NCBI GenBank assembly: GCA_001600495.1 | Contig: BCKE01000034.1 | Span: 286,186 to 350,185 of the forward strand | Length of the DNA: 64,000 nucleotides | Source of the DNA: Pilasporangium apinafurcum | Taxonomy: Eukaryota > Oomycota > Peronosporomycetes > Pythiales > Pythiaceae | Direction of reading: 5' to 3' | Shown here: one piece after another, positions 4,388 to 61,246 of the stretch | Numbering within the stretch: the stretch's first letter is position 1 | Layout of the letters: each line of letters opens with the position of its first letter | Made by a program: the position numbers and the translations under genes | The notes under the pieces: model-generated | What the model was told of the DNA's origin: nothing | The model's input: the letters and a program-made list of their open reading frames with translations, nothing else | Databases searched by the model: none

Positions 4388-5893
4388 ATGGGGAAACATG
4401 ACTTTTTAACGCCGAAAGCCATCAGCAATCGCATGAAGGTGGGCGTCACGCCTAAATATCTAGTCTTGCCTTTGTGATCACCTATATTAACTCATATGCA
4501 CGTCGTTTATATTCAGTCCAAAGGACTTCAGAAGCTCCGATGGTTCTGTCAGGTCTGTCAGAAGCAATGTCGTGACGAGAATGGCTTCAAGTGTCACACT
4601 ACGTCTGAAAGCCACCAGCGACAGATGCTCATCGTCGCAAACGATCCAGATAAGTTTATTAGCGGCTACAGTGAAATGGTACGTGGCATTACACAATGTT
4701 TGGAATAAAAATCACGTTATCACCGGTGCTTAAATGTGTTGTAGTTTGAAAACACATTTTTAGAGAACTTACGACGTCGTCACGGCACCAAACGCATGCG
4801 AGCAAATATTGTTTATAACGAATACATTGCAGACAAACTTCACGTGCACATGAATGCCACCCAGTGGACTACATTGGGCAATTTTGTCCAGTATCTTGGT
4901 CGCACGGGCAAATGCGTCGTAGATGAGACGGAAAAAGTGGGTTCATATATTTTTTTATGGTTGATCGCTCTTAGTCTTGTGTGTTCTGATCGGCGTTATG
5001 TTGTGTATTTCTTATAGGGATGGTATATTCAATACATTGATCGTGATCCGCGCACAGTCGCTCGAAGGGAAGAATTGGAGAAGAAGAAGAAATCGGATCT
5101 GGATCATGAAGAGCGAAATCGTGCTTTTCTAGAGCGACAGTTGAAAGTCGCGAGTGAGAAGGATGGTACAATGGAAGTACAGCCGACAAATTTGCAACGC
5201 TCAAACAGCAGCGACAAGATCAAGATCTCTCTAGCTCCAAAGCCAGCATCGAAAGATAACAATGCGAGTTCCAAACCTTCATTCGAGATGAACGTGTTTG
5301 CTAGCAATGACAAGCGTGAAGACGATGCGGCTAATGCTACACGAGAAGATAACAGGAAACGCCACGCGGTGGACGAGATCATGGCTGAAGAGGAGCGACG
5401 GAAGAAGCAGCAGAAGCGGAAAGAAGAGGAGGAAGCACAAAACCAGCGGCTCGAGAACTGGATTACCAAGGGGATTGTCGTAAAGATCGTCAATAAAAAG
5501 CTCGATGGAGGAAACTACTACAAACGGAAGGGCGTAATCATAAAAGTAGAGGACAAATTTTGTGCTACTGTGGAGCTGGACTCAGGGGATGTTTTGCGAT
5601 TAGATCAGGATGATCTGGAGACGGTGATTCCTAAAATTGGGCGGAAGGTGAAGATTGTGAATGGAATTGGACGAGGTGCGATCGCGAAACTGCTCTCCAT
5701 ATCGGTCGATGACTATTGTGCGAGTATTCGAATTGAAAAGGGGCCGCAAAGGTTTGTTTGTTTGTGAGTGTTGGAATTGTTGAGTGAATAATAAGTAAAA
5801 CGTTCTGTGTGTGTTGTATTCATTGCCACCTATAGAGGAGAGATATTAGAGCGTGTGGAATATGAAGACATCTGCAAGTTGGCCGATGAGTGA
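4388..5893 (+). CDS. KIN17: KIN17-type DNA/RNA-binding protein, 5 exons, 398 aa
   Basis: Nuclear protein tied in other eukaryotes to DNA replication and damage response and to mRNA processing. Exons read 4388-4438, 4517-4678, 4745-4936, 5018-5751 and 5836-5893. The family signature is complete: start MGKHDFLTPKAISNRMK, a C2H2 finger CQVCQKQCRDENGFKCH, the winged-helix-like KIN17 domain (TTLGNFVQYLGRTGKCVVDE), a charged coiled-coil linker with a Lys/Glu run, and a C-terminal KOW/SH3-like region (KGVIIKVEDKFCATVELDSG; GRKVKIVNGIGRGAIAKLL). The length is close to the human protein (393 aa). The terminal exon encodes the last 20 or so residues. The 5' end sits about 260 bp after the preceding gene on the same strand. 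Confidence 0.95.
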
Positions 5894-5968: not shown

Positions 5969-7076
5969 TCATGGTGATCTAGGCGACCGGCTTGCTTCAT
6001 CTATACCTCGCAAAAGCACAAACACATGCACCCACCAATTCAGCACCAACAATGAAGTCATTGTCCACAATTAGCGAAGTAAAGTTACCTTCTTCTCCGG
6101 CCTCTGCTGTTGATATAGGAGACGTTTTTGGCACCTGACTCCCTTCTTCCATTTTCTCATCCTCGGCATCGGCCTCCTGCTTCTGCTGTTCCTCCTCCTC
6201 CATGGCGACGTCCTCGTCCAGCGTGGCCTTAAGATTTTGAATTGTGTTCATCAGTAGCGCAAACTGTTTTGTTCGAAGCGCCAGCTTGTTGTCCACAGCT
6301 TCAATCACGCTCGTTGCTTCGCTCAATCGTTTCTTTTCCACCGCAATCTCGCTGGATTTCAAAACACAAATTAGCTAAAAGTGTGAGCAGTTGCGTAGAG
6401 CAATACTGTTTCATCAGGCACTACGTACGCAGCAATTTCATTTCTCGATGGTAACTCGTTGATGACACGAGCAATCGATTCGTACTCTTCTTTGTATGCG
6501 CGAATGGTGCGTTCGACATGAACTTTGGTTTTCAGCTCTTCAATCTCCTTTGTCACTTTCTCAATCGACGTGTCTGTCAAAATCATATGAATCATCATGT
6601 CAGATCAATACTAAGTGCATGGATACAATTCCCAAGCATTACTTCCTCACCAATCTCTGCATTAAGAGTTTCATATGCCTCCAGTTCTCGCTGACACGTA
6701 AAACTCCCAATGTCTGTCTTGTTGGCTTCAAACTCCAGTTGCTCCATCTCCCAAAACAGCGTGTCGATGTCGTGCTTACTAGCCACCCATTCACCTCACG
6801 CACTCAGACATGTGATTATCTGCTATAATCTACTCAAAACGCAGGGATACCTCGTAGCGGGGTCCACACTTTCGTCCGCAAATGCTTCTAACAGCGTCAA
6901 CATGCTTTCGGCGCATTTCTTCAGTCCAGTTTTCCCGAGAGCACTCGTGCGTGTCAATAACCGCCTGCGGATCACCAAGTCTGCCAAATGCAATTCATAG
7001 AGGAGAGTGATGACAACATCGTGAGCCAGTATCCTATGGCGATCCAGCTTTCTTCCTACACACCTTCATCTGCCAT
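5969..7076 (-). CDS. THOC7: THO complex subunit 7 homologue, multi-exon
   Basis: THOC7 is a coiled-coil subunit of the THO/TREX complex that couples transcription to mRNA export. Recognisable blocks in order are VIRRRLLTRTSALGKTGLKK, then RTIRAYKEEYESIARVINEL, then DNKLALRTKQFALLMNTIQN with the acidic C-terminal tail (MEEEEQQKQEADAEDE). Internal introns lie near 6851-6786, 6638-6582 and 6426-6361. Two ends are uncertain. An ATG at 7076 (MADEG) fits the 5' end, but joining it to the downstream frame would need an intron of only about 30 nt. At the 3' end the frame either stops at 5997 or splices once more and stops at 5969. The mobile-element relic lies just upstream of its 5' end. Confidence 0.85.
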
Positions 7077-7182
7077 TATTGCTTGGACTGCTGGTGGAAA
7101 AGGAGAAATGTATAGTATACATATTACATTTATTAATAACCGGACATCCTCTTTGCTCTTGTGACTCTTCGATTATTATATA

Positions 7183-7392
7183 GAATATGGGCTGACCATG
7201 TGGATGCGATTGAAAGGTTGCTAGACTCTCCCGCTGTCCATGGATACTCTTCTTACACTCTATTCTGCTCATCGTAGCTCTTGTGGTCTTAGAAGTCTAC
7301 GCAGGAGACACATGAGGAATGTACGAGTGTTCTTTGACGCATTGATGTCTTGCTCCGAGGTGATACTACATTCGCTGTTGTTGTACCAGAGA
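7183..7392 (+). repeat. Left inverted arm of the composite element
   Basis: Matches the reverse complement of 8197-8404 over about 208 bp. The strongest stretch begins at the shared GCTAGACTCTCCCGCTGTCC and runs through the Fanzor C-terminal codons. The outer about 40 bp are less similar (about 10 differences), the inner part nearly identical. Confidence 0.85.
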
Positions 7393-7640
7393 ACCTGGTG
7401 GGAGAGCTTGACGTGCATGCTTCATCAGCCTTTTTTGTCGGGAATGGCATCTTCTCGAGGTGCTGATAGCATTCGGAGCACCGCTGGCTCGTGCGATACT
7501 CGTTGATCTGCAGCACAGTCGAGTGTCTTGCCAGTTCACATGCGAACCGCTTCACGGGTCCGTGCACATGGCCTTTCCTGAAGTCCTATCGACTCCAGTC
7601 ACCGAGACCAATGCAAACCTGAGGACTTGGTGTGGGCTAT
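7245..7640 (-). pseudogene. Fanzor1 (TnpB-like RNA-guided nuclease) C-terminal fragment
   Basis: Read on the minus strand, the segment gives IGLGDWSR, a TAG stop, then DFRKGHVHGPVKRF, matching the RuvC region of Fanzor/TnpB proteins that precedes the zinc ribbon. Next comes INEYRTSQRCSECYQHLEKM, the hallmark EyrTS..Cs.C half of the zinc ribbon. After a frame change near 7420 the second half appears as VLWYNNSECSITSEQDINAS, containing the D-[IV]-N-A motif that carries the last RuvC catalytic Asp, and the frame ends LLRRLLRPQELR-stop. The N-terminal wedge/REC and first RuvC parts are absent. The internal stop and frameshift show it is not functional. Fanzor1 proteins of oomycetes and fungi are known passengers of DNA transposons, which fits the neighbouring mariner tail. 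Confidence 0.78.
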
Positions 7641-7851
7641 GATGGCATGGTCGAATGTATTTACACAGTACGACACCATCCATGAGCCCTTTTTACTTGG
7701 CTATTTACCATATTTCACTGAAATCTACGTGATCTGGCAAGTCTAAAACACATACACAGATGATAATTTGCAGCTCTCTGTCAACCAGAAATCACCACGG
7801 GACATCATATATGTGTATGAATTTTACTGTTAGTATGCAGTCTGAATGCAA

Positions 7852-8160
7852 TTAGTCGCTATCCGACTCGGATAATCCCCCTCCGCTAGATTCTAGTTCA
7901 TTGTCACTCTCGCTGTTGTCGATATCTTCTGTCCTCTGCATATGCTCGTAAATATCCGCTAAGTGACCATTTGTTTTGCCAATACATCCCTGCACTTGTA
8001 TAGCAGTTGATTGTGAGAATACTGCTTGCAAGCTTTCCAGCATATCCTTGAAAGCAGTTGCTTTGATATATTGTCTTCCTACTTTCCCCTGCATGATAGC
8101 CCATATTGTTTCTATAGGCTAGAGACCTGAGTGATGTGGAGGCGTAAAGACTAGGTTATG
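7852..8160 (-). pseudogene. Tc1/mariner (DDE) transposase C-terminal fragment
   Basis: The minus-strand reading gives HNLVFTPPHHSGL, a TAG stop, then PIETIWAIMQGKVGRQY, a close match to the conserved tail of Tc1/mariner-type transposases (PPYHSDLQPIE.vWa.vKg.vgrqY), where the stop replaces the usual Gln codon. The frame continues with KDMLESLQAVFSQ and an acidic end (SESDNELESSGG) before a natural stop at 7852. The catalytic core upstream (first two DDE acids) is missing. It lies upstream of the Fanzor fragment on the same strand, consistent with one ancestral element that carried both. Confidence 0.75.
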
Positions 8161-8196
8161 TCCATCCTCCTTTGCCATTGCAACTGCTATAGGCAC

Positions 8197-8404
8197 TCCG
8201 GTGCAACAACAGCGAATGTAGTATCACCTCGGAGCAAGACGTCAATGCGTCAAAGAACACTCGTACATTCCTCATGTGTCTCTTGCGTAGACTTCCAAGA
8301 CCACAAGAGCTACGATGAGCAGAATAGAGTGTAGGAAGAGTGTCCATGGACAGCGGGAGAGTCTAGCAGCCCCTCAAATGTGTCCACACGGTTAGTCCAT
8401 ATTC
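8197..8404 (-). repeat. Right inverted arm of the composite element
   Basis: Inverted copy of 7183-7392. In the plus direction it encodes the same Fanzor tail as the left arm (NNSECSITSEQDVNASKN), with Val replacing Ile in the DxNA motif. No other Fanzor sequence is attached, so this is either a terminal repeat that includes coding sequence or the end of a second, inverted copy. Confidence 0.82.
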
Positions 8405-8455
8405 TGGTAACCGCCATTATACAATCGCCATATTTATCATTTGAATGCGGAAGCA

Positions 8456-10279
8456 ATGTGGTTTGGCGTCGCCCCTGCACCTAGTCCATCGCGTACAAGC
8501 AGGAAGGAATGGCATCCGAACCTCTGCACGTGTGCCAAACACCGTAAGGCAAATGAAAAGGTGTTGGACCAAAAAGTGTCAGCTACAGCAGTGATTTCCC
8601 CTCGCACGTCTGCTGGAATAGTATCTCCCACGAAAGAGCTTGTGTCACCACGAATGCGCGAGCAGCAGCACGTCAAGTCCTCTCCACGAGTACGTTCATC
8701 GCTTAAGAAAATCTCTCAGCCATTTGCGTGGAACACTCAGCTGCTTCCAATCCCACCACCTGCTAATTTTGCTGTACCAAACACGGAGCCGAGAGCCACG
8801 CTAAAACATGATGCCAATTATGCCCAATCACCCGAAATAACAAGGGACCGCCATGTCAAAGATAAATCAGATGTAGATGACACTTCTGGAGGTGAATTTA
8901 ACGTTAATACGCCAGCTAATACTGAGCCCACGCTACTAGCAAGTGCTGACAATGAACCACCGCAACGTGTGACAATGTCACGAAGAGCAAGCCGAGAGCG
9001 AAGAGGTACACCCAACTCGACAACAGTTGATGACAACCATGACGAGTTAAGGTAAGGAAATATCACACACGATCCTGATGTTAAAAAAGATGAACCACGT
9101 ATGTTCTCTGCTAGATTCGAGCCAACACTCCTATCATTGTCTCTTCCTCCACCATCGAGATCTCGGCGCTCCGGAAGCAGCTTTTCTATCATACTGCCAC
9201 AGTGTACAGAATTTGCCACGCGAACAGAGCGACCAGCATGCCCTTCGCCAATGCACATTCACCCGGAAAATCTCGTTGGCCATACATCCAGTGTGTGCGC
9301 TCTACATACAGAAGATGACCGTTACATTATCTCCTGCTCCATTGACGGGTCGGTCAAGATATGGTCAAAGACTACATTCGCCTGTCTTCATACGCTATAC
9401 GGTCACGAAGACAATGTTTCCTGTGTGGATTTAAATGGGCGGTGGCTGGTGTCTGGTTCACATGATACAACCCTGCGCGTCTACAGCTGTCACAACAACT
9501 TCAAGCATCTTCATATCCTCCGAGGCCATACAGCACATATCACCAAAGTTCTCATTGCTCTTTCAATCCCGACCCATGTTTTCAGCTGTTCAGATGACGC
9601 GTCCATTCGATTATGGGATGCTGACAAAGGGTCATGTTTGCTGATTCTACGTACCCATACGTCTCGAATCACGTGTTTCCTTTTACAAGGCGACCAAATT
9701 TGCTCTGGCGCTGCAGATGCTGCGATCTGCTTCTGGAGGCTGCACGATCACGATACACACAGCGGCCAGGAAATTAGATGCTCTAGAATCTTTTGTGTCC
9801 ACAAAGCAACAATCCAATGCATCGTACCAGCCTCCACGATGGTTAACCAGCCATTGCTGTTCACCGGTTCAAACGACGGCACAATTCAACTATTCAACTT
9901 CAAGACGATGCAGCACATAGGCCGTTTTGACACCGTCCACTCACCCATTTATACGCTTGTCCCACTTTTGAATGGCACACTCATTTGCTCCACGGGTGAC
10001 GGCAAATTACTCCTGTACAAAGAGCTCTTCCGGTCATATCCACATATGAAAACGGAGCTGCAATTAGCACCAAAGTGGATTTCGTCGCTCCAGTCGTGTG
10101 GGGAGATTGTGGCATGTAGCTCTGAAGATTTTCTCTATATCGTCAATGTGCATCAATTACGCATCAAAGCTGTTCTCGAGACTAATCACAGCTTCATTAA
10201 TTGTGTGCGATGGCTTCATTCCGAGACACTGATCACTGCTGGCCAGGACAACGTTATTAAGGTTTGGAACCTCACCTAA
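8456..10279 (+). CDS. WD40-repeat protein with disordered N-terminus, 2 exons, about 586 aa
   Basis: Exons 8456-9051 and 9115-10279 join in phase. The first about 200 residues are basic and Ser/Thr/Pro-rich with SP/TP sites (AGIVSPTKELVSP) and a short conserved-looking block (LCTCAKHRKANEK). The second exon encodes about seven WD40 units: GHTSSVCALHTEDDRYIISC, SIDGSVKIWSK, GHEDNVSCVDLNGRWLVSGS, RGHTAHITKV, and so on to GQDNVIKVWNLT at the very end, forming a beta-propeller scaffold. The ATG at 8456 is chosen; an in-frame TTG lies five codons upstream but is not a eukaryotic start. The partner and pathway cannot be told from sequence. Confidence 0.88.
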
Positions 10280-27131: not shown

Positions 27132-30100
27132 TTACGCCATGAGCTGCCACAGCACCAACGCCACACAGCGTTGAACCCATTGTGTGGATGGAAACTTGGC
27201 TTCTTCGACCTCAACCGCAACTGAGAACAACAACAGGTCGCGTTTGGTGCTGGAGTACACAGGCAGACGACGGTATCCCATCGACGTCTCGCTTTCGCGC
27301 GCCCAGCGAAGTTGTACCATCGACAAGCTGTTGCGGATAACATCCGAAGGAGCAAAGCCATCGGCAGACCATTCCGCCCCTTCAAGCTTAAGACCACTCA
27401 CTCCAAAACTTCCGTTTTCACCTGTCGATCGAATATCGGCGATTAATTGCAGTTCATCAAGCGAACAATTGAGCTCAGCAGCCACACTTTGCCGTGCGGC
27501 AGTGACAAACGCCTCTGGCGAAAACAGCCCACCAAGCCAAATCCCGTTCTCTACTTGCAAGAGCTCAGTGGGGGAAACCACAGCCAATGAGCTGAGCTGA
27601 CGAATACGGAGCGAGAAATCTGTAAGCCATTCACTTAAACTCAGATCAATAGATACGCGGTACAACTGCGACCATTGTGTTGGGATTTTTTCTCGGTAAA
27701 GTGTTCGCATCGCCTCGCGAATATCGTTGGTTGGCTTGACTTTGTACGCACACACGTCCTTAATCGTCGAAAGTAATCCTGTCACCTTTGACAGAAAATC
27801 GGATGCCAATTCAACTTCACGGAACATGCAACGATAAATGGGGTTGGAAAAGTGCACCGGATCACGAGATAATGAAGGAAGTGCATGTGGGAACATAGAA
27901 AGCCACACTTGAACACGACGATCAAGTTCTTGGACCCATTTCGGACGAGAGTCTTCAGCATCTAAATTGCTTGATGCTGTCCCAAGCACCATGCTTTCCT
28001 CTTCAGTGTTACCATCAGCGCTTTCGCTTCCGTAAAAGTCTTGCAATAAGTGGAGATTCCGCAACATCCGAGAGCTCTGCGTGATAAGGAGCATTGTCTC
28101 AGCCGACCTTGGAAGCCCCATCCAAGAGGGAGGATTCGTACTTGGCAATCGATGGATCCACTCTAAGAACTGTTGCTTAGTCTTCCCCTCAGCAATGAGC
28201 AACTGTTCCTCACCTACGTTCACCAACTCAAAGCTATTTTGATAACTTTCGGGTGTGAAAACATGTTCAAGTAACGTATCCATCAGGTCCTGATCAAACT
28301 CGTTATCCACACGACCTCCATAGACGGATTCCTTTAAGGTTGTGCGAATAGCGGTCCATGGAATGTTATCTGGAGCCACATGAGCACGGTTGAGACCCAC
28401 AGAATTCACCCATCGATCAATCACATCGCATGCTCCTCGGAAATCTGACTGACTGAACTCGTATGCCTTAGACCAACCGACTGGAACGTATCGCAATCGC
28501 TCATGCACGAGTGCATGGAACCATGACAACAATAAATACAAACGGGCTCGTTCGGCTGGAGTCTTGTTCATTCTTTCTGCTGACACTGTGTCAAACGTAC
28601 GTAGCATGCTGAGTTTCATGCCACTTGGTGGTTCGAACACAAATATGTCACACATCCGAAGCAGATTTACTGGTAAATTGGGATTAATTTCGCTAGTCAA
28701 GAACAGTCGGAAGTTGGGATGAGCGCTATCGCGCGCATTGTAGATTTTCTTTTCCACTATAACAAGCCAAGAAGGACACAGATGCACGTTTCGGAGCAAT
28801 AACCACGTCCCGTTCTTCAATGCTGTATTCAGACCCTTCTCTGCAGCATCAAATCCTTCAGCAGAGCCCATTGAAACCGACGTATATTTCTTGTGTAGAG
28901 TCATTGCAAGATCATCGATCTGTGCACTGGCGTCAAAGCCCGTCGTCGAGCACAACAAAACAGCGCGAGTCGACTGTGTATCACTCTCAATGTTCTTACT
29001 CAATTCAATTTCTCCTCTCCATGGGAACTCCGCACCAAAAACGAGATCGATGTACAATTCGGCTGCAAAAATGACTCTGTCGGGGCGAAGGAAGTGGACA
29101 AGAACAAGGTTTCGGAACGCTCTCCGTCGTGGATTAACATTTCCATCCAGGTAAGTGGAATCCCAGTCTACAGGAATATTTCTTTCTGCCGCTGGGTGTT
29201 TCACAAATGCATTCCACTCAGAAGCATGATCTCTAGCATGTTGCTCAATGTGTTTGAAAGAAGGCAACTGCAAAAGTTTCAACAACTGATCCATCTCTGT
29301 CTTGGAGAAGGATGACAACAATGATTCGAGTTCATCACGAAGCTCTCCAACATTCGGACGTAGGAATGTTGACGCATTACCGAGGAGTGTATCAATTTCT
29401 TCTTCTACTGGCCCATCAAACGTAGCTTCTTTTCCTGATCCTGGCTTTGTCGCAGCAATTTGCTCTTGCTGCAGCTCCAGGTATATCTGAGATAGCCTCA
29501 ACACAAACATGAGCTTGTCATTCTCCGCTAATCCACGACTCACTCGACTTGCGAGCTGGGTAAACAGACCCTTGGAGAGATTTTCAAGTCGAATGCCTTC
29601 TTGAGTTTCATCAACTTCACGGGGTTGCGATAACAATTTCGTTAAGAGCGAAAGGAAAAAACTCAGCGAATACTGATATAAAAAGTGGATGGAAGACAGG
29701 CTTTCCAACGTGAAGAAGAGTCGAGAACAAGCCTTTGCTAACGGACGATACCGACTCGTGGCAGATTCCACCATAGCCATAGTTGTGTGAGTCTCTTCAA
29801 CTTGCTTCGAAATGTGAGCGGCTTCCGCTTTCGTACCTTCCAACGCGTTGATAACACTATCATCATCCAAAATATTTCCTTGAACATTGTTAATTTGCTG
29901 CAATAGCGAATCCTCGAGCTCGCGCAATTTGGCTTGGTATTCTCCTTGTAGTTTTAGTAGATTATTTCGCTTTTCCTCTGCTTCTGGTTGCTCACTCTTT
30001 AGCAAAATGCTTAATCCTTGACTTTCTAGCGAGCTTGGAGTAACCGTGAAATTAACAAACGTCACACGACTGCAAATGTCTGGTGTAAAGCGGCACGACG

Positions 30101-33100
30101 GATCTCTCGTGATTAAGAACAAGCGAAAATCTGGTGAGTAGTCGATCTCTTCGCCAGCAAGTCGAATCAAAACACGGCCACCAGTCTTGTACAGCTCACG
30201 GTTTAGAACTGGATTCAAAATTGGATCAATATTCTCCACCTCATGCACCAGCAACGCTGTGCCGAAACGAATAGCACTTGCCAGCACTTTCATGAACGAA
30301 CTATCCAAGAAAGATGTCTGCGCAATCTTCGTGTTGGTCTTTAATGCGTAGTATTTCATAATGAAGTTGTTTGCTTGTCCAGAAGGGTCGATAATCAACG
30401 GAAAACGATGGAAACGCTGCAAAATGATCGCATTCTCATAGCACAACTCATCCGAAGGTAGATCACTCATTTGCCATTCCAATTGTTGATTGGGTCGAGA
30501 TAAATAATCCACGAAACTCAGCTGCGGCTTTGTACTAATGCCCATAGTCGTCAAAATGTCGCGCCAATCCTGAACCAGAATCTTCCTTTGTTGAAAGTCT
30601 AGGAAGCCAATATAGGTGAGGAACGCTGAGCACAAAAGCGTATCTCCTACAAGCGTCTTCATCTGCGTTTCAAAGTCATTGGAGCCTACTTCCCAGCGTT
30701 GGCTTTCTTGTAGGAGACTCTTCAACAATGCCACAGAACGTTCCACTTTCTTGTTGACTTGGGCCATATCATTTGTGATAAGCTGAGCTTCGTTAATTAG
30801 CGCGGCATATTCGTGCTTGTAGTTGTCTATGCGCACTTCCAAGGCATCGATTGTCGTTTTCGCTTCCTCGTACCTCTTTCGTAGCTCACTTGATTTTTCC
30901 ACAAGGGTCTGCACTTCCTCACGCAGAGGTTGAATTTTGTGAAGGATAGAGGTATAGTTGAGTTGAGAAATTACCCACTTATATAGGGGTCCGCATGCTT
31001 TGGATGCACGATTGATTTTTTCATAGTCAAACTCGTCCGTATTGTCCACATAATTAGTCTGAACGATATGGCGCTGTTTTGCGGTGAGTTTCTCAGAGTC
31101 AAAGTTCACCACCTGAGAAATAAAATCATCTCTTCGAATAAACTTGCGAAGATCAGCCCATTCCAGACTTGTTTCACCGAGCATGACTGCCACAGCTTCC
31201 ATAATCAGCTTGACCGCGACAGGGGGTCGGGCAAGAGCCCGGATTTCATCCAACTGGGATTTACGAATCGAATTGACAGAGGCTTGAGCGTCCAAGAGAG
31301 CTGGCTCGGCTTCTGCAAGATCGGCTTCCACAACCTGCTTTCGAGTACTAATTTCCAAGTCCTTACTCGCGAGATCGGTAGCAAGCTTTTCAGTGTCCTT
31401 CTTCTTCTCTTGGGCCTCATTTTGCTCCTGAATCATTTGCTGCAGCTTTTCATTAGCCTCTGCATCCTTCTTCTTTAGTTCGTTTTCTTTGACACTCAGT
31501 TGGCCCTGTAGTTCTGCAACTTGTTCATGAGTAGCCTGTAATTTCTGCACACCAACATTCAAGTGCAGTTGTTGGTCTTCTAGCTGGGCTCGCTTTTCCA
31601 AATAAAGTGAAACGAAGTGCCGAATAAACTCTAAATAATCACGAGGTGAGATGTGATTGTATTTCATGTGACGCTTCTGCAGACGCCGCATATGCAATAG
31701 GACTGCATGGTGAATTTGGACAATGCTGCCCACCAAAACATCACGAAAAGTACCCGTTGCAATGTGCGGGATGAGCGCTGCTAAAATTTCTTGAGCCTCA
31801 GCCGGAATCGTAAAATCACCCGATCCTGGGAGATCCAGAGTGTTTGTGAACTCGTACGCGACCTGGGCGAGCGCATGATCATTCCATGTACCAAACCAAT
31901 CCACCACACAACGATTGAAGAGAGCAGGAGATGTATTGGTACGATTGGAGAAGTCTCCTGAGGCTGGATTCATGGTAAATACAACATGAAGATTTCGCTG
32001 TACTTGCTTCGTGAAGTAGCGGAAAAGTTCATCTTCGGTGTTCTCTACTATAACACCATCACGTTGGACTGCTTCGCGGCAAGCATGCATTAATGACGAA
32101 TATTCATCATCTTCAAAAAGACCAGGGACTTCTCCAGACGCCAGCAAAGCATTCATACGCTCCAAAAATGCTGAATTAAGCACGTTTGATTCGTCAAAGA
32201 TGAAGCAGATCTTTTCGCCGTCACATCCACACCTCTTGAGAACAACACGAAGGTCGTCATCGAAGTTCGCTAGCGTGTAATTTGACGTCAGTTTGATTTG
32301 AAATACAGACATGCCATTCATCCAACTCACAAAACGAGAAAGCACAGTTTTACCAGAACCACTTTCCCCAACTAGCAGCAAATGCCCCAGTGGTTGTCGA
32401 AGAACACGGTCAATACGAAGAACATGGTCAATGACTGAATCAAACACAACCAATTGAACATTCAGTTCTTCTTCATAAAAGACGCGCAATCGTGCTTCAA
32501 TATGTTTGCGCAATTCCATCGTCGAGACTTCTGTGTAGTTTTTGGACAGCCACGTGCTGAAAAGAATAGGCTGCTGGCTGTTATATTCCACAGACTGCAA
32601 TGCAGTAGCAATCTGAGGGAAGTGCGTGCGCATAATTTCTTTCACAGTATCAAAACACCACTTCTGCTCATCGGGTGTTACAAGACGATCCATAAACAAA
32701 CGCAACGCCTCATGGAACACCAACTTCACCAAAGTCTCCAGTTCAATCTCATACTCGAGTGGCTCAATCGCTTCATACAAAGCTCGCATCCATCTTGAGA
32801 GCTCTCTTGGACTGTAGATATAATGCGGTTCCATTTCTGCAGTAAACTTTGTCTGGTTACTATGGTAGACATCAACCATAGCATCAGTTAAGGGTTGCAC
32901 ATACGCCTTCAAAGACGGTGTGAGCTTGAGTAACGCTCGATTGAAGGTTCCGTAAATTTGCTTTAATGACGGATAAGATGGGAAATCCACAAGAAGAACA
33001 GGAGCATGACGCAAAAGACGCAAGGATAACGGCACACGACCAGGATCTGTAGGCGGATTGCATGCACCCACAAACTGAATTCGTTGCAACCGCACCCACA

Positions 33101-36100
33101 CGTTCTTCCCACCTAACCAAAAACCGCCTTGTTCAATGAGCTGCCTCAAGAACGTGATAACCCGTTGTGTTCCATATCGATCAGCTTCTGGTAGATTGAT
33201 TTCATCGCAAAAAACGACAAGCCACTTTTCAGGAGCATTTGGAGCAAGTATCATTCCATTCGGTGTTCTTTTGTATTCACAATATTGGCCAAAAGTCTTC
33301 AAAATCAAATCTGGAGAAGTTCCGGATGAAAAGTTTAGACTCGCAAACTCAAATTCCGGTAATGAGCTCAGTGTCGATGTTAATGTCATCGTCTTGCCAC
33401 TACCCGGTGGGCCACAAAGGATAAGTGGTCGATGCTGAGACAGCCAGCTTCGTAAAACTTCAACATGACGAATAGTATCCACTGTCGTTACCACAACATC
33501 TGTTGACAGCACACGATGACTTTCAAGATCCAGTTGTGGAATTGAGCGACTCCATTGACGCCATTCACCATCATCAATATTAACTTCATATTCGAGTAAG
33601 TTGTTGTCTGGGGTCGACGTAGATGATACCGGAAAGCTCATACGGCTTTCGAGCGTTTGCACAACGAAATCACATAGCTTGATGCGATTAACCGAGTCCA
33701 TCGAGCCGCCAAAACCCCAACATATAGAAAACGCCAACCACTTCGGAGCAAATGACATTGTTTGCTCTACCGTCATAGGAAAGTCTGGGTGACTTTCATT
33801 GTATTCACTGATTTTTGAGAGACCTCGTGCAAGTAACGAAAACATCGACATCAACAAACGCAGGCTAGTGACTTCCATTATATGAGTCAAGCACATTGCG
33901 TATTCCAGGCAGAGTTCAATCACGGATGGCATTCCATCACCTCGAGAGATCGCCTCACGAACTAGTGCGACGTAAGTGTGAGCACTTTTCTTCATCGTTT
34001 CTGTTTCGTTTATCTGCAGAGAAAATGATGAAATAATGGAAATATCATCTCGGATCTTTTGCAGATAATGCTCCACAATATGCTCAGTCTGCAGTGTGTC
34101 ATGCGAAAACCAGACCATACCACATCGACTAACCGTCGCGAGAGTTGCATAGCGTAACGTCTCAGTCTCCATGACAATCCATACATTTGCCGGGATCTCA
34201 AGGCGCTCTCCAGATGGAAGTGTAAGTAATCGATTATCATCAAGCACAGAGTTGAGATTTTCTGCCCATTCTGGATCGACATCACCATCAAAAATGATCC
34301 AATGTCTTTTCTCACTTTCCCCTCTCACGCTGTTCAGGACCTGGCGGAGAAGATGTGTAAATACCCCATCAGTCCACTCTAGGGTTGTATTATCCAATAC
34401 CCCATACAAGTGCTCTTTGGATAGTGCTTTGGGATCAATTACGTGTGCTTCACCTTTCTTTCCGTCGAACATTTCCAATCCATCCAATAAAGTTCGCCAC
34501 GCGCTTGACTTTCCACTACCGGATGGCCCAACCAACATAACACCATGGCGAAGTTGCATCACTTGGTACAATTGAAGTGCTTTCTCGACCCATTGCTCGT
34601 GAGCAACCAGATTTCTTTCCTTGGCTAATTTTACGACGCTCTCTCGAAGTGCGTCTTCTTGAATGCGATGAGTTTGAGTACCTGGAAACACGCCCTTCAA
34701 CAACGTCTCGAACACTGGCACATCGTGAGCGACTAACTTGGGTAGAATTGTGTCGCTGATAGAGCCAATAAGAGCTTTCGTTTCCAATTCCTCGATACCT
34801 GTTGATGAAGATGAATCCTGCAAGACTGAAATTTTACGCTTGAGTTGACCAGCGCTTACTAAAACACTCTTTAGTGCACGAAGACCAAAATCGTAATGAG
34901 GCTGCTTAGATAGCTGATCTTCGCACAAATTAAACAACAGCACCACCTTTGCAGAAATTTGCTCTGCCGTGGTAATACCCTGTGAAAAGAGCATGACCTG
35001 AGCGATCAACTCACGATCTGGTGCGACCATGGCAATACTGCGGAAGAGTTGCTTCAGATTGTCAGGTAAGTTCGAACGTCCAGCGTACCCAGGATTCATC
35101 GTCACAAAAATGCCAACATCTGGATGCAACCTCACGCTTTTCCCAAGAAGCTCAATAGTGGTTGTACTTGTCGGTGCAATAGCTTCAGTTTGTTTGTGGT
35201 TCTTAAGTGATGAAACGCCACTTTGTATGGCCAAAATTTGCTGCGAAACAGCAGATAGAACGCGTTCTTCTAGACGATTAAACTCATCAAAGCAGCCCCA
35301 TGCACCAACTTGACACAGACCAACAAAAATCCGACCCATTGCTTGGAAGTCAAAATGCTCATCACAATTAAATACCAGTACGAAACGTCCCAGCTGCGAC
35401 CCTAGTGCCTTCACAGACTCCGTTTTACCTGTTCCAGCAGGGCCGAAAGGGTTTCCACCCATACCAAAATCCAAGGCTTGAGTCAGAGTAAGGTAGCAGC
35501 GCTCAGTCAGTGGGGTCTGCACTAACCGTTCACCAACACCAAGATATTCAAACCCATAAGAGAAGCTCGCATTGGAGACCTTGATAATCAACTTTTTAAG
35601 AGGATCTGTCTCAGCAGCATGGAAGTAGTGACGCATATGGTACAACCACCGGAAGTCATCTATGCTGCTGACTTTAGATTGACTGAGTCGCTTGGTAACA
35701 CTCTTTTGATGGACAAGCTCTGTTATCAATTGCTCATACTTTTTTCGGACCTCGTTCTTTACATCCGAAAGTACACGCTCACTCAGTATCCGCAAGCATC
35801 CGTCTAGTTGTTGAAGTACCAGTCCTAAGTCACCACCACCTGCTTTTAAAGCCGTTTCCACAGAGCGCGACCACTGTACTTGTGTAGCCAGGATGATCAC
35901 TTGAGCAGGAAATTCAGAAACCCAGTTCAAATACGACTCGATGTCGTTTTCTGATGGATATGAGCGAACTGCTTCGTTCAGAAGCTGAGAAAGCGTTTGA
36001 CGCATTTGATCTTCCACTTTTCCAAGCCAAATATTGATCCGTGTATCTTCAGATACCTTTACTGGTTGTTTAAAACGAACAACTTCACCCTCGCGAGATA

Positions 36101-39100
36101 CCATGCCTAGAATGGTGCTATGGTCACCGTCCATCTCTAACGAAGAAACACCAGCAAACATCTTTGACAGATGACGTTGAATCTGAATAGGCTCTTTGCT
36201 GTTGCCAATCATTTCAAGTAAATCTTCATCACCAACAAAGTAGAACCGAGGAAAAGCAGCTCGTTGGCGCTCCAAGTATTCGCCTAATGCACGCTGAACA
36301 TTACCCATCATCTCTTGTTGGCGTTCAAGAGAGTGGTAAAGGTTGGGGATATTAACAACTTCCACAATCATTGGCTTATGAGCAACACGTTTCATAGTTG
36401 ACGTAAACTCATTGTCAATGCTTTGAAAACGGGCGAATTCCTTTGGTAATTGCTGCTTGATATCAGCCGATCCAAAGAATATACCTTCTAAATACACCCA
36501 TCGTCGTTGAACATCAATCCAAAAATCCAAAATTCCACGAATCCTTGTCAATTTGTCTTCCCAATTCGCCGCTTGTTCGCTGAAGACACGATAGTACGGT
36601 GACTGCTTCATGCTGCTCAAGCTATTCAAATGCTCTTCCAATTTAGCGAACATTTCATCCCATCCACGAATAATACGGCAGCGGTTCTGGTAATTGACCA
36701 AATCCAGCTGATAATTGGTCCAATAATCTGTAACTTGACGTAAAAACTCATCAAGTGCCATCTCACCTTGTGCAGTACGAATGATTGTTTTCAGTTCGGT
36801 GTCATTTGAGGATAAACGGGATTCCCAAAAGCTGCGCAGAGTCATTTCCGTGAACGGAGAGGTTATATGTAGCAAACGAAGAATTTGCTTCCAATGACGG
36901 TCACGAATAGCATCGGACTTTAACTCTGAAAGCAAGGAGTTCATGGACTTTTTGGCTTGAATTGATTGCATAAAATGCTCAAAAGCCTCATACTGCTGCA
37001 CTCTTGCAGGAAACCGACGCATTTCCTCAATAATTTCGTCCAATTGCTTCCGAATTTTTCGTGGCTGAGCAGCAGACCAAAGAGTTTCTTGTAATTCTTC
37101 TACGCGTGCCCACACTTTCGAAATGCATTTCCACACTTCCTCTAGACCAGCCAATTCTTCGATAGCACGAGACAGAGATGCGTTTCCATCATCTACAGAC
37201 ACACTTCCGACACCTGGAATGTATGAAATGCTTAACGCATTTAATGCCGCGCCCATTTTATCTTGGTCTGCTTGTAAAAGCTTAAAGCGAGTGTCATAGA
37301 TTATGAGTGTTTCGGTTGCCGATTTTGGCGATTGACCACCTTGCAATGGCTTAGCACCATCCCAATCAGCCACAGCTTTGGCAATCTTTTTGTCTAACGC
37401 CGATTTTTCTTCAAGGATTTTCGCCTGGAGCTGCGGTAATTGATTTTCCATGGCGGCACTTTTACGTTCCAATAGCTGAATGAATGCTTCCCATTCTCCC
37501 TCCACATTGGCTAGTGATGGCCAATCGGCCGAGAACCGATATCGTTGTTTTTTCAATAAGCGTTCACCCTGCGAAAACGAGTCAACTGCTTCTTGCCAGT
37601 CAATACGCATTACTCGCATTTCCTGGATTAGGGTAATAGCAGCAACAACTTGAGCAGTTGCAGCTTCGAGTCCGTGCTGTTCCAGTTGGGTTCTTTTAGT
37701 TGAGATCGTACTATAAAAGGAGTTAATTTGGTTGTACAAAATATCCCCAAAATGCGACAAAAACTCGTTATGCCAGGCATCATACTTGACATTGACTTGC
37801 GCTTGAATTTGCTGGTAGTTGATTATCAGAGGTCCAAAGCGCTTTGTATTGAATACGGCATCGAAACTGTTGCGCTCATTTTTTATTTCAACGAGAATTT
37901 GCTGCCATTTCTGAAGATCCTCCCCGACACTGTTTATGGCTGTCTGAGCATCCATATCCCACAGTGCTTGATATTGCAGCCAAGTAGATGCGTACTTTTC
38001 AACTTCATGTAGTGTCGTGTCCACAACCGTGTAAGCCTTCACCACCGTTTCTCTAGAGACGTGGGTTAATACTTCTTTAAAGACTGATTCTCTTCGCCGA
38101 GCGCTTGCACTCTTCCGAGAAGGAGAGCCTCCAGTCACTGTTGACTTCCCGTATACATTCTCATATGAAGTTGTTTGAATCTTCGGCAAATCGCACACAG
38201 AATTGAGCAAATACTGGAGCTGCACTAACCATAGGCTGCGAGCGTCTTCTACCGAAGGCTCAAGATAGAGGGTTTGATTCTTCAGCAGTATTTGGTGGGT
38301 TCTTGTTGTGATTTTCGCCGCCGTAACTGCGTTCTGAAGTACCTTTTCGTTTGCATGAGGTTCAAAGCAGGAAATCCAGTTAATGAGCATATTCTCTAGT
38401 TTCCTGCCCAATATCGCACTGATCATATTGTTCAAGTTTTTCACAAACACATTCAAGTTGGCGTATCCGGCCAAGCTTAAGTCATCAACAATAGCTTGAA
38501 GTTTTTTCAAAGCTTCCTGAACTTCCGCTTCCTGAAACTCATGGGTTCCTCTGATACTGTCCAAGAGCTGCTCGATATCATTAGTCTTTTGCAACAGATC
38601 TTCCACTTTATCATGGAGACGTTCAACTTTTGCTGCAAGATCCGTGACATATTCTCCAAGTCCGTCGGCATGCCATCTCATTTCGTTACCTTTCGTAAAG
38701 GTTTTGCCGATTGTTACACGTACTTCTCGGACATAATTAGCTGTTAATGCCTCAAACATGGGTTGGATGCGCCGACAACTACTTGTGTACGTCTTTAAAC
38801 TGGCATCCAGTGACATAGCGAACGGGTATTTGGCCTTCGCGTCCTCTGCAATCATTTTGAGAGTAAAAGGAACTCGATACCCCAGCCATTCAAGATTGCG
38901 CACTTCCTTAAAAAGAGTCACAATTTGTTGATTGAATGCAACCACCAACTTTTTGCGTTCCCCTTGAGGTGTCTCTTCTGTTACAATATTCAGAATGATA
39001 TTCTTGATATCAAAAATTGGCATGGAAGCAAGTTCATTGACCCATTGATCAAAGATAAGCTGTGGGTTCAACTTGGCAATAAATGCTTCTGCAGCCATTT

Positions 39101-41444
39101 TTAGTGCTTTTCCTTCAACGTGTTGTTCCCAGCCAAGCCCCAATACACTTTCAACTCGAGACAAGAGCATCTTCAATTTGCGTTCAATTTGCTTTGCCCA
39201 CATCACTGCACCGGCAATTGGGGGAATATCGCGAAGTTTACTCGTTCGTGAGGCCTCGGAGAAAGCATAATGAGCACGAAATTTTGCTTGTAGGTTACTG
39301 ACATCTTCCTTCACGTTTTCAATAAGTTGCATTTGAAATTGCTGCACTGCACTACGGATCCGCGGGCGAAAAAACAGCGCATTATATTTGGAGAATACTC
39401 GAAACATTTCGTCAGCGTTGGACGTGGCCTGTAGTCGGCTGGTTAGGCTGTTGATAATGCGACCTTCCACACGGTCAATGCAAAGGTCATAGGATTTCCG
39501 AACGTTCTTCCATGCAGTTGTTCCCTCTACCGAAACATCAAGTGGGTCCAACGCATTAAGCTGTGCATACGCTGCATTTATTTCCGTCAGAGCATCATCT
39601 GTGATCTCTCCACGTGTGTCGTTGGGTCCAGCCGTCGATGCACTCCCTAAGACTCGCTCAATCACCTGATGCAGCTTTTCATGCTGTTCTCTGAATTCAT
39701 ATAGCTCCAATAGTCTTTCTTCGATTACTGTGTGCTCCATTTGGAGCTCAGAAAGCAATGGAGGTTTGTCCGTATTCATTGATCCGCGTCGTTTCGATAA
39801 TTCTTTCGTAAGATCATATAATGCCGCCACTTGTCGGTGCCAGTTGGCGAAAAGCTCCTTACAAGATGCAAACAATAGCTCAAACTGATCGAATGGCATT
39901 TGAATGAGATTGTACGCACGCAACAAGCTGGCCACTTGCTGAGTCAAATCGCTTGAGATAACTTCCACGAGATGGAGCAGCCGCGAAAGCTTATATTCAT
40001 CGGCAACGCGAATCTTCTTTAAATGAGTAAACACCAGCGTGATACCTTGATTCAGTTGATTGATATCCGTTGCAGAAAGAATCGAATTCATTGGAAAATC
40101 CTTCATCAACATCATAACACTGGACACACGCTGAATTGCTGGTCCGAGACCATGATCAGCTGCAAAAGTAACTGTTGCAAGATATCGTTTCGCTCGCTTC
40201 AACAGCGCCAAAGTAATTTCAACTTCTGCGGAGCTCAATTTTTCTTGTGCTCCAAGCAGTGCCCGATTCAAATCGCACCAAAAATTGATCTCTTGCATGG
40301 CTGTACCTGGCAAAGGCTCACTGCCAAATGACAAGGATAGAAATAGTGTCTCATACAATAAGTACCTACGACTATAAGTTAAGTATAGTACAATTAATCA
40401 TGCACTACCTGATGAGTCTGGTTACTTTCTGGATTTCCTTGATCCATTTATTCACACCTCCTTGAATATCGTTCAAAAATGTGACGTCATTGACATACTC
40501 TTCCAATCCTAGCGCTTCGATATCAATCAGCACACCCTTTTCACGCACCTATCAACCGTTAACAAGATTGGTTAGTCTACTGATAATTGGAACCGTGTCA
40601 AAGCATCATGATCAGACCACTAACCAAACTCGCAGCACGCTGGATTACAGGATGAAACACTAAATTCACTTCCGGGATTTCAATATTCTGCTGGTATTGC
40701 AATAGCGCCAGCTCCAATTCCTTCATTCGTCGTCGGATTGCAGGTAAGCCTACGCAACAGTGCGATATCCTAAGCGTCTTCCCAAATCTTAGTATCGTCT
40801 TCAATAGCATCATTACGCCTACCTCTTGCTCCTTCATTCAAGTTCGTGATTTCATTCTGTGGTTGATGAACTTTTGAATACTCAGTAACCAGTGGGCCAA
40901 ACGACTGATGCACGTAGTTGTATACCACTGACAACAAATTTCCGTCCTGATCGTCATCGTCTTCTTCGGTATTATCACCACTGGTGCTGCTGGCACTACT
41001 GCTGACCGTGCCTGCCTCCGAGGGCTGCTGTTTCTCGCCATTTTTCTTCCCGAGGCCAAGTGTCATCACCTGTAATTGATGGTTCAGCGTCTGATCGCTC
41101 GTCAATGGTTCACTGAAGCGCTTGATAAAGCAGACGACGTCGTGACCCAGTTTCTTTGCGGCCACGTACTCGATGCCGAGATTGACGCGGATCCGGTACG
41201 CTAGTTCTTTGTCCTCTCCATCCGCTCCGCGCGACAAGAAGCAATGCACCTGCAACACACGCACCTGCGAGTCCGCCACGAATTGCTCCACGACTGCAGT
41301 CGCATGTTCCGTGCGAATATCAGCCGCAAATGTGTTCGCGTTCAACGCCGAGCTTTCCCAGAAGAGCGGACAACAGGTCGCCTGCAGATAACACTGGAAT
41401 GCGTCCGTAGGGACGAGATCCGCCGTCGCACTACTACTCGCCAT
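27132..41444 (-). CDS. DYNC1H1: Cytoplasmic dynein 1 heavy chain, 4 exons, about 4706 aa
   Basis: Minus-end-directed microtubule motor. Exons fit 41444-40823, 40749-40625, 40548-40409 and 40365-27132; the sum is an exact codon number and the last exon alone is 13.2 kb. The N-terminal tail resembles cytoplasmic dynein 1 ([38 protein letters not shown]) rather than axonemal chains. The motor has four P-loops: AAA1 [15 protein letters not shown] (about 35,440), AAA2 [15 protein letters not shown] (about 34,520), AAA3 [14 protein letters not shown] (about 33,400), AAA4 [14 protein letters not shown] (about 32,360). Walker B of AAA1 is [12 protein letters not shown]. The coiled-coil stalk with microtubule-binding tip spans about 31,600-30,700, and the C-terminal domain ends at 27132. 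An acidic Ser-rich insert ([17 protein letters not shown]) sits in the first exon. Confidence 0.95.
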
Positions 41445-45154: not shown

Positions 45155-46761
45155 ATGGGGGATCAAAGTGCAGCGGAGATGCTGCAGGAGGCGGCCGATG
45201 GCTTCTTCTTGGCGGCGGAATACGGACGATCTGATGTGATTAAAGCGCTCGCTGACCATGGGAAGGGGAGGATCAATCTTGGAGCAATCATTGACACGAA
45301 AACAGGCCGCACGCCGCTACACGTGGCTGTTGCCAATGGCAAAGCCGACGCACTGCGCGTGTTATTAGCAGCAGGTTTTCCTCCAGATCTCGAGACTTTT
45401 GAGAAGCAGGAAGTAAGAGAAGCAGGTAGCGAACAGAAACACGGTGATACTCCGCGTCGAAAGCGCACAGCGTACATGTTGGCACAGGATCTTAAGGCGA
45501 CGGATCTCGTGTTCGTTTTCCACCAGTTCATCATCCAGCAGATCGCTGGAAATGACGTGAAGGGCGTGCAGCGCATGCTGTCCGCAGGGATCGACGTAAC
45601 CATGACCGACGGCGTTGCGGAAAACACGCTTGTGCATTGGGCCGTTTCGTGTCAAGCGATTGATGTCTTAGAATTCTTGTTGGGCTGTGACGAAGTGCAA
45701 AAGCAGAAAGTATTCGATCGTCGAAACGCCGATGGTGCGACACCACTGCACATCGCGTGTCGAGGAAACCAACTCGAATGCGTACGTGCGCTGCTACGTA
45801 ATGGCGTCGATCCAACGATCCGTGGCAATAGGGGATCCAACAAATCCAAAACAGCCAAAGAATTGGCAACGTCACCTGCAGTGATTGCTGCGTTTGAGCA
45901 CAATGTGAATAGTGATGGCAGCAAAACTAACGGATCTGTGTCTGACAAAGAGCAGAGTAGAGAACCCGACACAAAAGCACAGGAAGCTATGACTAGATAT
46001 TCTGCAGGGAGTGACAAGTTGGCTAGTAAACTTAAGCTGCAACTAGAAGAAAAAGACCTACTCATCAATCAGCTCAAGCAAACGATTGAGACACTGGTTA
46101 TCGAATCTCAAGAAATCAGCAAACTGGGTGAAGAACGAGTGATGTTGGACTATGTACGCAAGTTACGGCAGGTAGGCAGTTTTCCCTAGGTATTTTCGAA
46201 TTGTGAATCGTAAGAGGGATGAAAATGTTTCCCTTTTTGTATTTAATGTAACAGGAAAAAGAGATCCTACAACGACAGTTTGAAGACGCAGAGGAGCATA
46301 TCAAGGCTCAGCAACAACAGTTGAAGGAGCTAAAAGATCAAATTCGCGAGCTGACTTTGGCTAAACAGGTACGTTGATAATCTATTTTTCGTTGCTGTGT
46401 GGCAGTCTATAACAAACACATCGGATTGGACTTTTGATCCCATGTGTAGGCTCAATCACCATCAAATATGCGAAGCGAATCAGTGGAGACATCAGACCAC
46501 GTACCCCAGAACAAAACAATCCATTCTGAAACAGATTCTACAGTCGAAGCAGATCCGCACAGTAACTCTACCATCAGTGAATCAGCAGAGATTGCCCCAG
46601 TTATTTTAAACTCAAGTAATTCAGTTGTTGCTCGAACAACAAGAGAACATACTATTGCTGGTAGTAGTGGAGATGCATGGGGATTGACGTGGAGCGGTAT
46701 CTGGCCGTTCGGAGATAATATGGAACGAGATGCTGATGGTGAAGTTATCATGACTGTGTAG
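45155..46761 (+). CDS. Ankyrin-repeat and coiled-coil protein, 3 exons
   Basis: Ankyrin units are clear: GRTPLHVAVANGKADALRVL, NTLVHWAVSCQAIDVLEFLL and GATPLHIACRGNQLECVRAL. A Ser/Lys-rich linker and a long coiled coil follow (KLKLQLEEKDLLINQLKQTI). The coil continues into a second exon starting KEILQRQFEDAEEHIKAQQQ (from about 46256) and then a third (from about 46450) of acidic Ser/Thr-rich sequence ending with the hydrophobic block WGLTWSGIWPFG. Without splicing the first exon would stop at 46189. The role is probably protein-protein scaffolding; no partner is evident. Confidence 0.83.
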
Positions 46762-46908
46762 AAATTAATAGCAACTTCATTAGAGCTTATAGTAGAGTGT
46801 GGCGTTTTTTAGTGAGAGAATGTATTGATTATAGTGCAAGAGAAGACACAAAGTTTTCGCAATCACTTCGCTTATGCTGCTGTGAGCTGCTAAGGCTGCT
46901 TAAATTTG

Positions 46909-47252
46909 CTAGAATTGCAGCTGCTGCTGTTGTTTACAAACACTTGTAATTAGTTTCTCTCGCTTTCGAGGCTGGTTGTAGAGAGAGCAGTTGTTAGCGC
47001 ACAGTCGCTGGCCAGATGGAGATGCTGACAGATTTCTGTTGCACGAACAGACTGCAGGAGTTCGCAGTTCTGATTGCAAGGCAGTCAAGAAGCGTTCGTG
47101 AGCTTGATTTTCTGGCTTTGTGCTGGATGAGGCGCTGGGTTTCTTCCTAAAAAAGCAATACTATAGACTGAGGATCATACGTTCAAACCTCAACTTTCTA
47201 GCGACTTGGACTACCTCCATGGTGTTGCTGACGTCGTTAGTGCCTTGTGCAT
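46909..47252 (-). CDS. Small uncharacterised two-exon protein, 91 aa
   Basis: Found by joining two short exons: 47252-47215 (MHKALTTSATPW) and 47146-46909, with a GT-AG intron of about 68 nt; the total is an exact codon number. The product is basic with a Cys-containing C-terminal half (AVCSCNRNLSASPSGQRLCA, then NNCSLYNQPRKREKLI). The CxxNCxxY-like tail looks conserved rather than random. It could alternatively be the last exons of the neighbouring upstream gene. Function unknown. Confidence 0.5.
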
Positions 47253-59506: not shown

Positions 59507-59868
59507 GCTTTTCTTCCTTCGATTCTTGCAGGTGACTTTCCCTCTCGATAATGCGGTTGCCAGCTATTATTGCATCTTCAAGGGCCACACTTCAGGGTGA
59601 TGAAAAATACCGGCGGTTGTCCTGCGCTCTGGGGGACCTGGTCGGACCATTTTAAACCACCTTAGATCACCCTGTCACGACTGCTCCCACCGGTAACCTT
59701 TCCCAACAGTAGTTGTATAGTAGTGCATGTTGGTATACTGTATACACCTGAGAGAGACCAAGCCATCACTTCTTCAACATGCTCTCATTACTATTCATCC
59801 TTATCTTGCGCAGCATGAGGAGCCACAGCATCGTAAAACAAATGAAAAATAGGAAATTGATTGCTCGA
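59507..59868. other. Intergenic region
   Basis: About 360 bp holding the promoter of the trehalose-type gene and the 3' end of the next minus-strand gene. It contains a GC-richer patch at 59620-59700 with ACCGGT. No other feature seen. Confidence 0.4.
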
Positions 59869-60992: not shown

Positions 60993-61246
60993 TTTTGAAT
61001 TCAGAGATCCGATGGCAGAGTTATGGTACCTGTCAGCCCCATTTCTGTAATGTGCAAAATATTATAATACCTTGTTTTGATATATAAGTATACCTTTTTA
61101 TGGCATTGGAGTTCTTGAGTTATTTTCAGGTACAATGAACAATGCGAGAATCTCAATTACTTGAGTAAGGAAGCGACAAGCAGCTTCTCTGCACCTGTGG
61201 ATGGAAGAAGCAGGAACAGGAGTCTCGGTGGTGATTGCGTCTTAGC

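Follow-up and report, generated by a model that had tools for sequence, protein, structure and literature searches.

Between positions 7182 and 8405 of the window (the whole 64,000-nucleotide stretch of Pilasporangium apinafurcum DNA analysed here) lies what is very probably the dead, internally deleted remnant of a transposable element of the Fanzor1-mariner kind. The remnant holds the 3' part of a Fanzor gene and, by a weak match, the 3' part of a transposase gene on the same strand. Both reading frames are broken, and the 3' end of the Fanzor gene is found on each side of the remnant, in opposite orientations. It encodes no complete nuclease and no complete transposase: parts are missing, stop codons and a frame change interrupt what is left, and neither protein can therefore be made whole. 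The earlier note on this DNA had described a Fanzor1 relic only. Its reading of Fanzor1 descent held up, but it overlooked both the second, inverted copy of the nuclease tail and the putative piece of a transposase, and the whole feature, at about 7182-8405, extends beyond the segment that it delimited. The features, with the evidence for each, are these:

6371..7076, minus strand: THOC7-like gene, a neighbour outside the element (PF05615, 6.3e-11 on 6371-6604)
7182..7396, minus strand: inverted-repeat arm 1, with the Fanzor's last ~41 codons, its stop codon and 87 nt beyond (repeat search)
7182..7268, minus strand: the 87 nt that follow the Fanzor stop codon, where an omega-RNA scaffold would be expected (position as in SpuFz1)
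7269..7636, minus strand: likely Fanzor1 C-terminal relic, with RuvC end, zinc ribbon and C-terminus (PF07282 with X at the breaks, profiles, motifs)
7637..7851, minus strand: spacer from the transposase stop to the recognisable Fanzor remnant (translation)
7852..8199, minus strand: putative C-terminal portion of a DDE transposase of the Tc1/mariner/IS630 type (TPPHHS..PIE..W, acidic tail), with one in-frame stop (PF13358, tblastn)
8191..8405, plus strand: inverted-repeat arm 2, with a second Fanzor C-terminus (ALRCNNSECSITSEQDVNASKN...), its outer end perhaps at 8428 (TnpB profile, E 1.7e-03)
8319..8405, plus strand: inverted twin of the post-stop stretch, different at 12 of 87 positions (arm alignment)
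8456..10279, plus strand: putative WD40 gene, a neighbour outside the element (PF00400, 3.7e-38 on the open piece 9056-10279)

Translation of the minus strand bears out the earlier note's account of three motifs in a fixed order, interrupted by one in-frame stop and one frame change. IGLGDWSR (7612-7589) is followed directly by an in-frame TAG (7588-7586), downstream of which DFRKGHVHGPVKRFACELARHSTVLQINEYRTSQRCSECYQHLEKMP, reaching 7445, includes the second motif, EYRTSQRCSECY (7501-7466). The reading frame shifts near 7425-7415, and HQVLWYNNSECSITSEQDINASKNTRTFLMCLLRRLLRPQELR, with the third motif, EQDINASKN (7355-7329), continues after the shift and terminates in the stop codon at 7271-7269. 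About 120 residues of the protein are left, the N-terminal domains and the first RuvC Asp are missing, and one zinc-binding Cys has been lost; with the stop and the frame change, these losses justify the word relic that the earlier note had used. In the spacer at 7637..7851, where GC is 0.38 for positions 7650-7851, the N-terminal and central coding parts of the Fanzor gene were not recognisable.

When the relic was written as a single protein with an X at each of its two breaks (the stop and the frame change), Pfam model PF07282 (TnpB zinc-ribbon, TNB) matched it with an E-value of 3.9e-07 and 30.6 bits, against a cut-off of 26.3. Without bridging, the 98-residue piece of the relic scored below the cut-off for PF07282 (0.022), the other Fanzor pieces had no Pfam match, and NCBIfam gave a weak match of the relic to TnpB (0.065). 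The low score of the 98-residue piece might suggest that the segment belongs to another zinc-ribbon family, or resembles TnpB by chance, as might the reversed version of the bridged relic, which matched a different zinc-binding family at 0.047. Such a reading is extremely unlikely. PF07282 was found in none of nine scrambled controls of the bridged relic (one reversed, eight shuffled), one shuffle of which matched a TPR family (0.12), and the C-terminal motif recurs in the inverted copy. Assignment to a different zinc-ribbon family was the outcome that the earlier note had named as telling against its interpretation, and searches of Pfam and NCBIfam with the Fanzor pieces reported no other family.

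Two profiles were also used. The TnpB profile was built from four bacterial TnpB C-termini that had been picked by similarity to the relic, and is not independent of it, as Pfam PF07282 is; the Fanzor1 profile was built from the C-termini of three solved Fanzor1 proteins. The relic matched the TnpB profile with an E-value of 1.4e-11 (best of 200 shuffles, 0.21) and the Fanzor1 profile with 2.3e-07 (best of 200 shuffles, 0.057). Both profiles were then run against 1974 pieces of the window, comprising all six-frame stop-to-stop translations of at least 20 residues, unbridged. The three top pieces for the TnpB profile were the two relic pieces (5.6e-05 and 4.2e-04) and the inverted copy (1.7e-03), with the fourth piece at 0.61. 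The search with a Fanzor1 profile that the earlier note had proposed ranked the larger relic piece, 7292-7585, first in the window at 0.0047, followed by a piece at 0.096; the second relic piece and the inverted copy were absent from this profile's best 8 of the 1974 pieces.

Among solved structures, a direct phmmer search of the PDB with the relic found no Fanzor chain; the unbridged relic gave a weak match to Cas12f (0.045), which bridging weakened to an E-value of 1. When the bacterial TnpB rows and the relic were combined in one profile, it retrieved 32 PDB sequences; these were chiefly chains of TnpB and Cas12, along with the mimivirus TnpB-like L79, and none of the 32 was a Fanzor1 chain. 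In tblastn searches the bridged Fanzor piece matched seven plasmid records (E 0.7-8) and seven phage records (E 3-10). Eight of these 14 are annotated as transposase, IS200/IS605 or zinc-ribbon proteins; the remainder are a GlxA regulator, GipA, three GDSL lipases and one unannotated record. Four of the 14 supplied the bacterial rows of our alignment, and PF07282 was present in all three of the four on which Pfam was run. The 98-residue piece found nothing at E 1 in phage records. Pattern searches for close relatives in viral contigs gave 13 and 3 matches, none of them confirmed, and a DNA pattern for GPVK..EYRTS had no match there. The only locus to emerge from 32 pattern matches in genome contigs (25 residues at 56%) was rejected as a chance resemblance, because it lies inside a 286-residue open reading frame antisense to one of 300 residues and its translation lacks a zinc ribbon.

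Within this broad family, the relic likely descends from Fanzor1, judging by its residues. The solved chains PpFz1 (Parasitella), SpuFz1 (Spizellomyces) and GtFz1 (Guillardia) have three C-terminal motifs in common: G[DN]W, E-x-x-TS-xx-C-xx-C and H-x-x-L-x-C-x4-C. At these places the relic reads GDW, EYRTS-QR-CSEC and H-Q-V-L-W-Y-NNSE-C. With L-R-C-NNSE-C, the inverted copy keeps the Cys that the relic lost: the third zinc-finger Cys is Tyr in arm 1 and Cys in arm 2. No single copy has all four Cys, since arm 2 stops short of the first two. The published zinc finger motif of Fanzor proteins, [TS][TS]xx followed by a C4 finger (PMC3627910), is found as TSQR-CSEC in the arm 1 copy. After the finger, where an RD dipeptide is expected, both copies have QD, with the Asp kept; GtFz1 has RN at this position, and the dipeptide is therefore not strict. 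Because RD is lacking here, we class the sequence as a Fanzor1-derived remnant and not as a Fanzor.

It is improbable that the relic descends from TnpB or Fanzor2 instead, even though the TnpB profile scores it at 38.3 bits against 24.6 bits for the three-sequence Fanzor1 profile. Given that difference, the assignment to Fanzor1 rests on the motifs and on the transposon context. The shapes H-x-x-L-x-C-x4-C and G[DN]W are found in three of three solved Fanzor1 chains, and are complete here only with both copies combined. The first of them occurs in none of the four bacterial rows, three of which have C-x2-C and one C-x-C at that place; for G[DN]W, one of the four rows was too short to score. 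The residue-by-residue comparison covered Fanzor1 and TnpB rows; beyond it, the same remnant holds a putative piece of a DDE-type transposase and not of a serine recombinase. The earlier note's claim of Fanzor1 descent thus draws on two lines of evidence, the PF07282 score above cut-off with X at the breaks and the signature of the three solved Fanzor1 chains.

The transposase piece reads TPPHHSGL*PIETIW... and matched PF13358 (DDE_3) with an E-value of 0.0011 and 19.3 bits, below that model's cut-off of 28.6. The match covers profile positions 99-138 of 146 and starts at about 8178, 13 nt inward from arm 2's inner edge. By tblastn the piece matched 35 plasmid records, all weakly, the best E-value among the 20 matches listed being 0.01; those 20 comprise 13 IS630 family transposases, six hypothetical proteins and one record without annotation.

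The two arms, 7182-7396 and 8191-8405, form an inverted repeat of 215 nt that is 91% complementary and has its halves 794 nt apart. In a scan of the window for inverted repeats of at least 40 nt within 3 kb, it was the only one. The tail of the Fanzor nuclease is thereby present twice, on opposite strands, and arm 1 continues inward into the Fanzor remnant. A comparison of the arms shows 19 differences over 215 positions (17 transitions): two fall in the first five bases, five in the 123 positions of coding sequence and stop codon, and 12 in the 87 post-stop positions. The outer 37 nt (7182-7218 and 8369-8405) differ at ten positions, against nine in the inner 178 (Fisher p 2e-4, for a boundary chosen after the data had been seen). 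Beyond 7182 and 8405 some similarity resumes after a gap of 10 nt, and the ends of the element blur over 7169-7182 and 8405-8428, where neither a clean terminus nor a clear TA target-site duplication could be seen by eye. No further copy of the element was found within the 64-kb window. Of the earlier note's statement that this genome has or had active Fanzor elements, the past tense agrees with the decayed relic, and the present tense gains nothing from a window without another copy.

In the general model for TnpB-type nucleases, cutting of the site emptied by excision leads to repair that restores the element. The parent of the present remnant would have been a DNA transposon of the Tc1/mariner type with the order transposase, Fanzor1 and, at its right end, a short omega-RNA scaffold, and its nuclease would have been guided to cut the excision-emptied site, whose repair copies the element back. 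A copy of the right end, in inverted orientation, may then have taken the place of the left end and of the first part of the transposase gene, for instance through strand switching during gap repair, after which most of the Fanzor gene would have been lost and the remnant would have decayed. The more diverged outer 37 nt would perhaps be the old left terminal repeat, joined to the copied right end. We consider it probable that the arms arose in this way, by inverted duplication of the right end; that the transposase match begins only at about 8178, with nothing but the end of the DDE profile, suggests that the left end and the preceding transposase sequence were replaced.

Two other origins of the arms deserve consideration, each compatible with, or silent on, the family reading given above. 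Were the arms two fragments of one Fanzor family that came to adjoin tail-outward, one of which brought the transposase piece with it, their 19 differences would be such as two family members might show, and two insertions of one family would likewise give matching outer ends. This is unlikely on grounds of parsimony, as it places two insertions within 1.2 kb when the other 62 kb hold no copy. Somewhat more doubtful is the proposal that the element naturally had long terminal inverted repeats, of 200 nt or more, which took in the 3' end of the Fanzor gene. Each terminus would then have borne the post-stop (omega-RNA) stretch, and the relic would be an ordinary internally deleted copy; this proposal, too, concerns the arms' origin and leaves the family untouched. 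The 91% likeness of the arms, the symmetrical layout and the similarity that resumes beyond the arms after the 10-nt gap all agree with it. Yet the terminal repeats of SPu-1 are short (30-33 nt), the transposase match that starts with the end of the DDE profile argues for a breakpoint at about 8178, and the divergence is uneven between the inner and outer parts, as divided at the boundary chosen after the fact. The inverted duplication of the right end is the origin that we prefer.

The post-stop stretch lies where an omega-RNA is expected. SpuFz1 has a non-coding RNA of 88-90 nt just downstream of its gene, and its 75-nt scaffold spans the right inverted repeat (PMC10432273). The suggestion in the earlier note that an omega-RNA scaffold once lay 3' of the relic thus agrees in position, and the 87 nt may have encoded one; folding and comparison of the two arms lent it no support. 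Four stretches folded no better than their shuffles (z 0.17, -0.05, 0.61 and -0.17), and Rfam at gathering scores gave no match. The last 80 nt of both arms yield a consensus hairpin of 22 pairs, one of them changed on both sides, four changed on one side and none broken. When a single arm was folded by itself, however, the opposite arm kept 24 of 26 and 22 of 27 pairs, and when the same changes were placed at random, the null was equal or better in 237-442 of 1000 placements across eight settings. We dropped the consensus hairpin as evidence for an omega-RNA, random placements having matched its consensus energy.

If the remnant is transcribed through, the arms of its RNA could form a computed duplex of about 207 base pairs. 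Read-through from a flanking promoter would yield a hairpin RNA of some 200 base pairs, and small RNAs of about 21 nt cut from it could restrain live Fanzor1-mariner elements, their target being the stretch around the Fanzor 3' end and the omega-RNA. By analogy, the remnant might have been retained as such a silencing locus, which we regard as very improbable. The analogy is with Mu killer of maize, another locus at which part of a DNA transposon is duplicated in inverted orientation, copies of the terminal region included (PMC3440606); Mu killer acts on MuDR, whereas the present remnant is known from its DNA sequence alone. In Phytophthora infestans, small-RNA output per Mbp is highest from inverted and tandem repeats, and at inverted repeats the 18-23-nt class is the more abundant one (PMC3804510). 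This output makes a host-made brake on a Fanzor element a testable idea.

The element sits between two divergent genes. The THOC7-like gene has a candidate ATG at 7076, a first intron at about 7063-6981 indicated by the exon join, and a possible extension to 5997. The putative WD40 gene has a candidate ATG at 8456, and an in-frame stop at 9053-9055 separates its two open pieces; from the donor-like GTAAGG there, we infer an intron across the stop. The candidate start codons are 1379 nt apart (7077-8455), and the remnant takes up 1224 nt of this interval (89%), or 1260 nt (91%) with its blurred ends. The upstream regulatory DNA of both genes may stem from the remnant or have been displaced by it, and if the remnant has any present effect, the likeliest is as the upstream DNA of these two neighbours.

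CpG observed/expected is 0.69 in the relic (7182-8405), against a median of 0.99 for windows of the same length; four of 1256 overlapping windows are as low, two of which overlap the relic. Two more regions, at about 45800-47200 and 59650-62000, are nearly as CpG-poor, and by eye no transposon was recognised in the ORF lists covering parts of them. We therefore do not conclude that methylation drove the decay of the relic. Elsewhere in the window, 5018-5767 (plus strand) is a KIN17-like C-terminal exon (PF18131, 5.2e-18), and 27132-40397 (minus strand) is a single stop-to-stop frame of 4421 residues with dynein heavy chain domains from end to end. At 52958-55234 (minus strand) is a PIP5K-domain protein whose long N-terminal part appears by eye to be membrane-spanning, as in the GPCR-PIPK type, a type common to oomycetes and not confined to them (PMC6033456); on this ground the oomycete origin named in the earlier note is plausible.

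Fanzor1 families have been described from Pythium ultimum, three Phytophthora species and Albugo laibachii (Bao and Jurka 2013, PMC3627910), a Fanzor of Phytophthora cactorum is named in a figure legend of PMC10711439, and two Fanzor passages of PMC11481859 do not deal with oomycete elements. A narrow search of the Fanzor literature on oomycetes and Phytophthora found no description of an inverted duplication of the Fanzor 3' end. In the element PUl-1 of Pythium ultimum, a mariner-like transposase and a Fanzor1 are carried together (PMC3627910), and the present remnant resembles PUl-1 and related Pythium ultimum elements in combining a putative mariner-type transposase with Fanzor1 in an oomycete, a likeness of description rather than of compared sequences. 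Unlike PUl-1, it is a broken element that retains little of either gene and has two Fanzor 3' ends, arranged as an inverted repeat. With SPu-1 and its nuclease SpuFz1 it shares a Fanzor1, and SpuFz1, too, has copies without an open reading frame, the "ghost" loci; the conserved region of those ghosts is about 550 nt long with 30-nt repeats, whereas the repeat here is 215 nt long and includes coding sequence (PMC10432273). A window that was read blind thus agrees with the published link between Fanzor1 and mariner elements in oomycetes. It also supplies one concrete example of a Fanzor 3' end that, adjoining the guide-RNA region, forms an intergenic inverted repeat. The remnant, a decayed single copy and otherwise ordinary, is one more case of the known Fanzor1-mariner kind, set apart by its paired, inverted nuclease tail.
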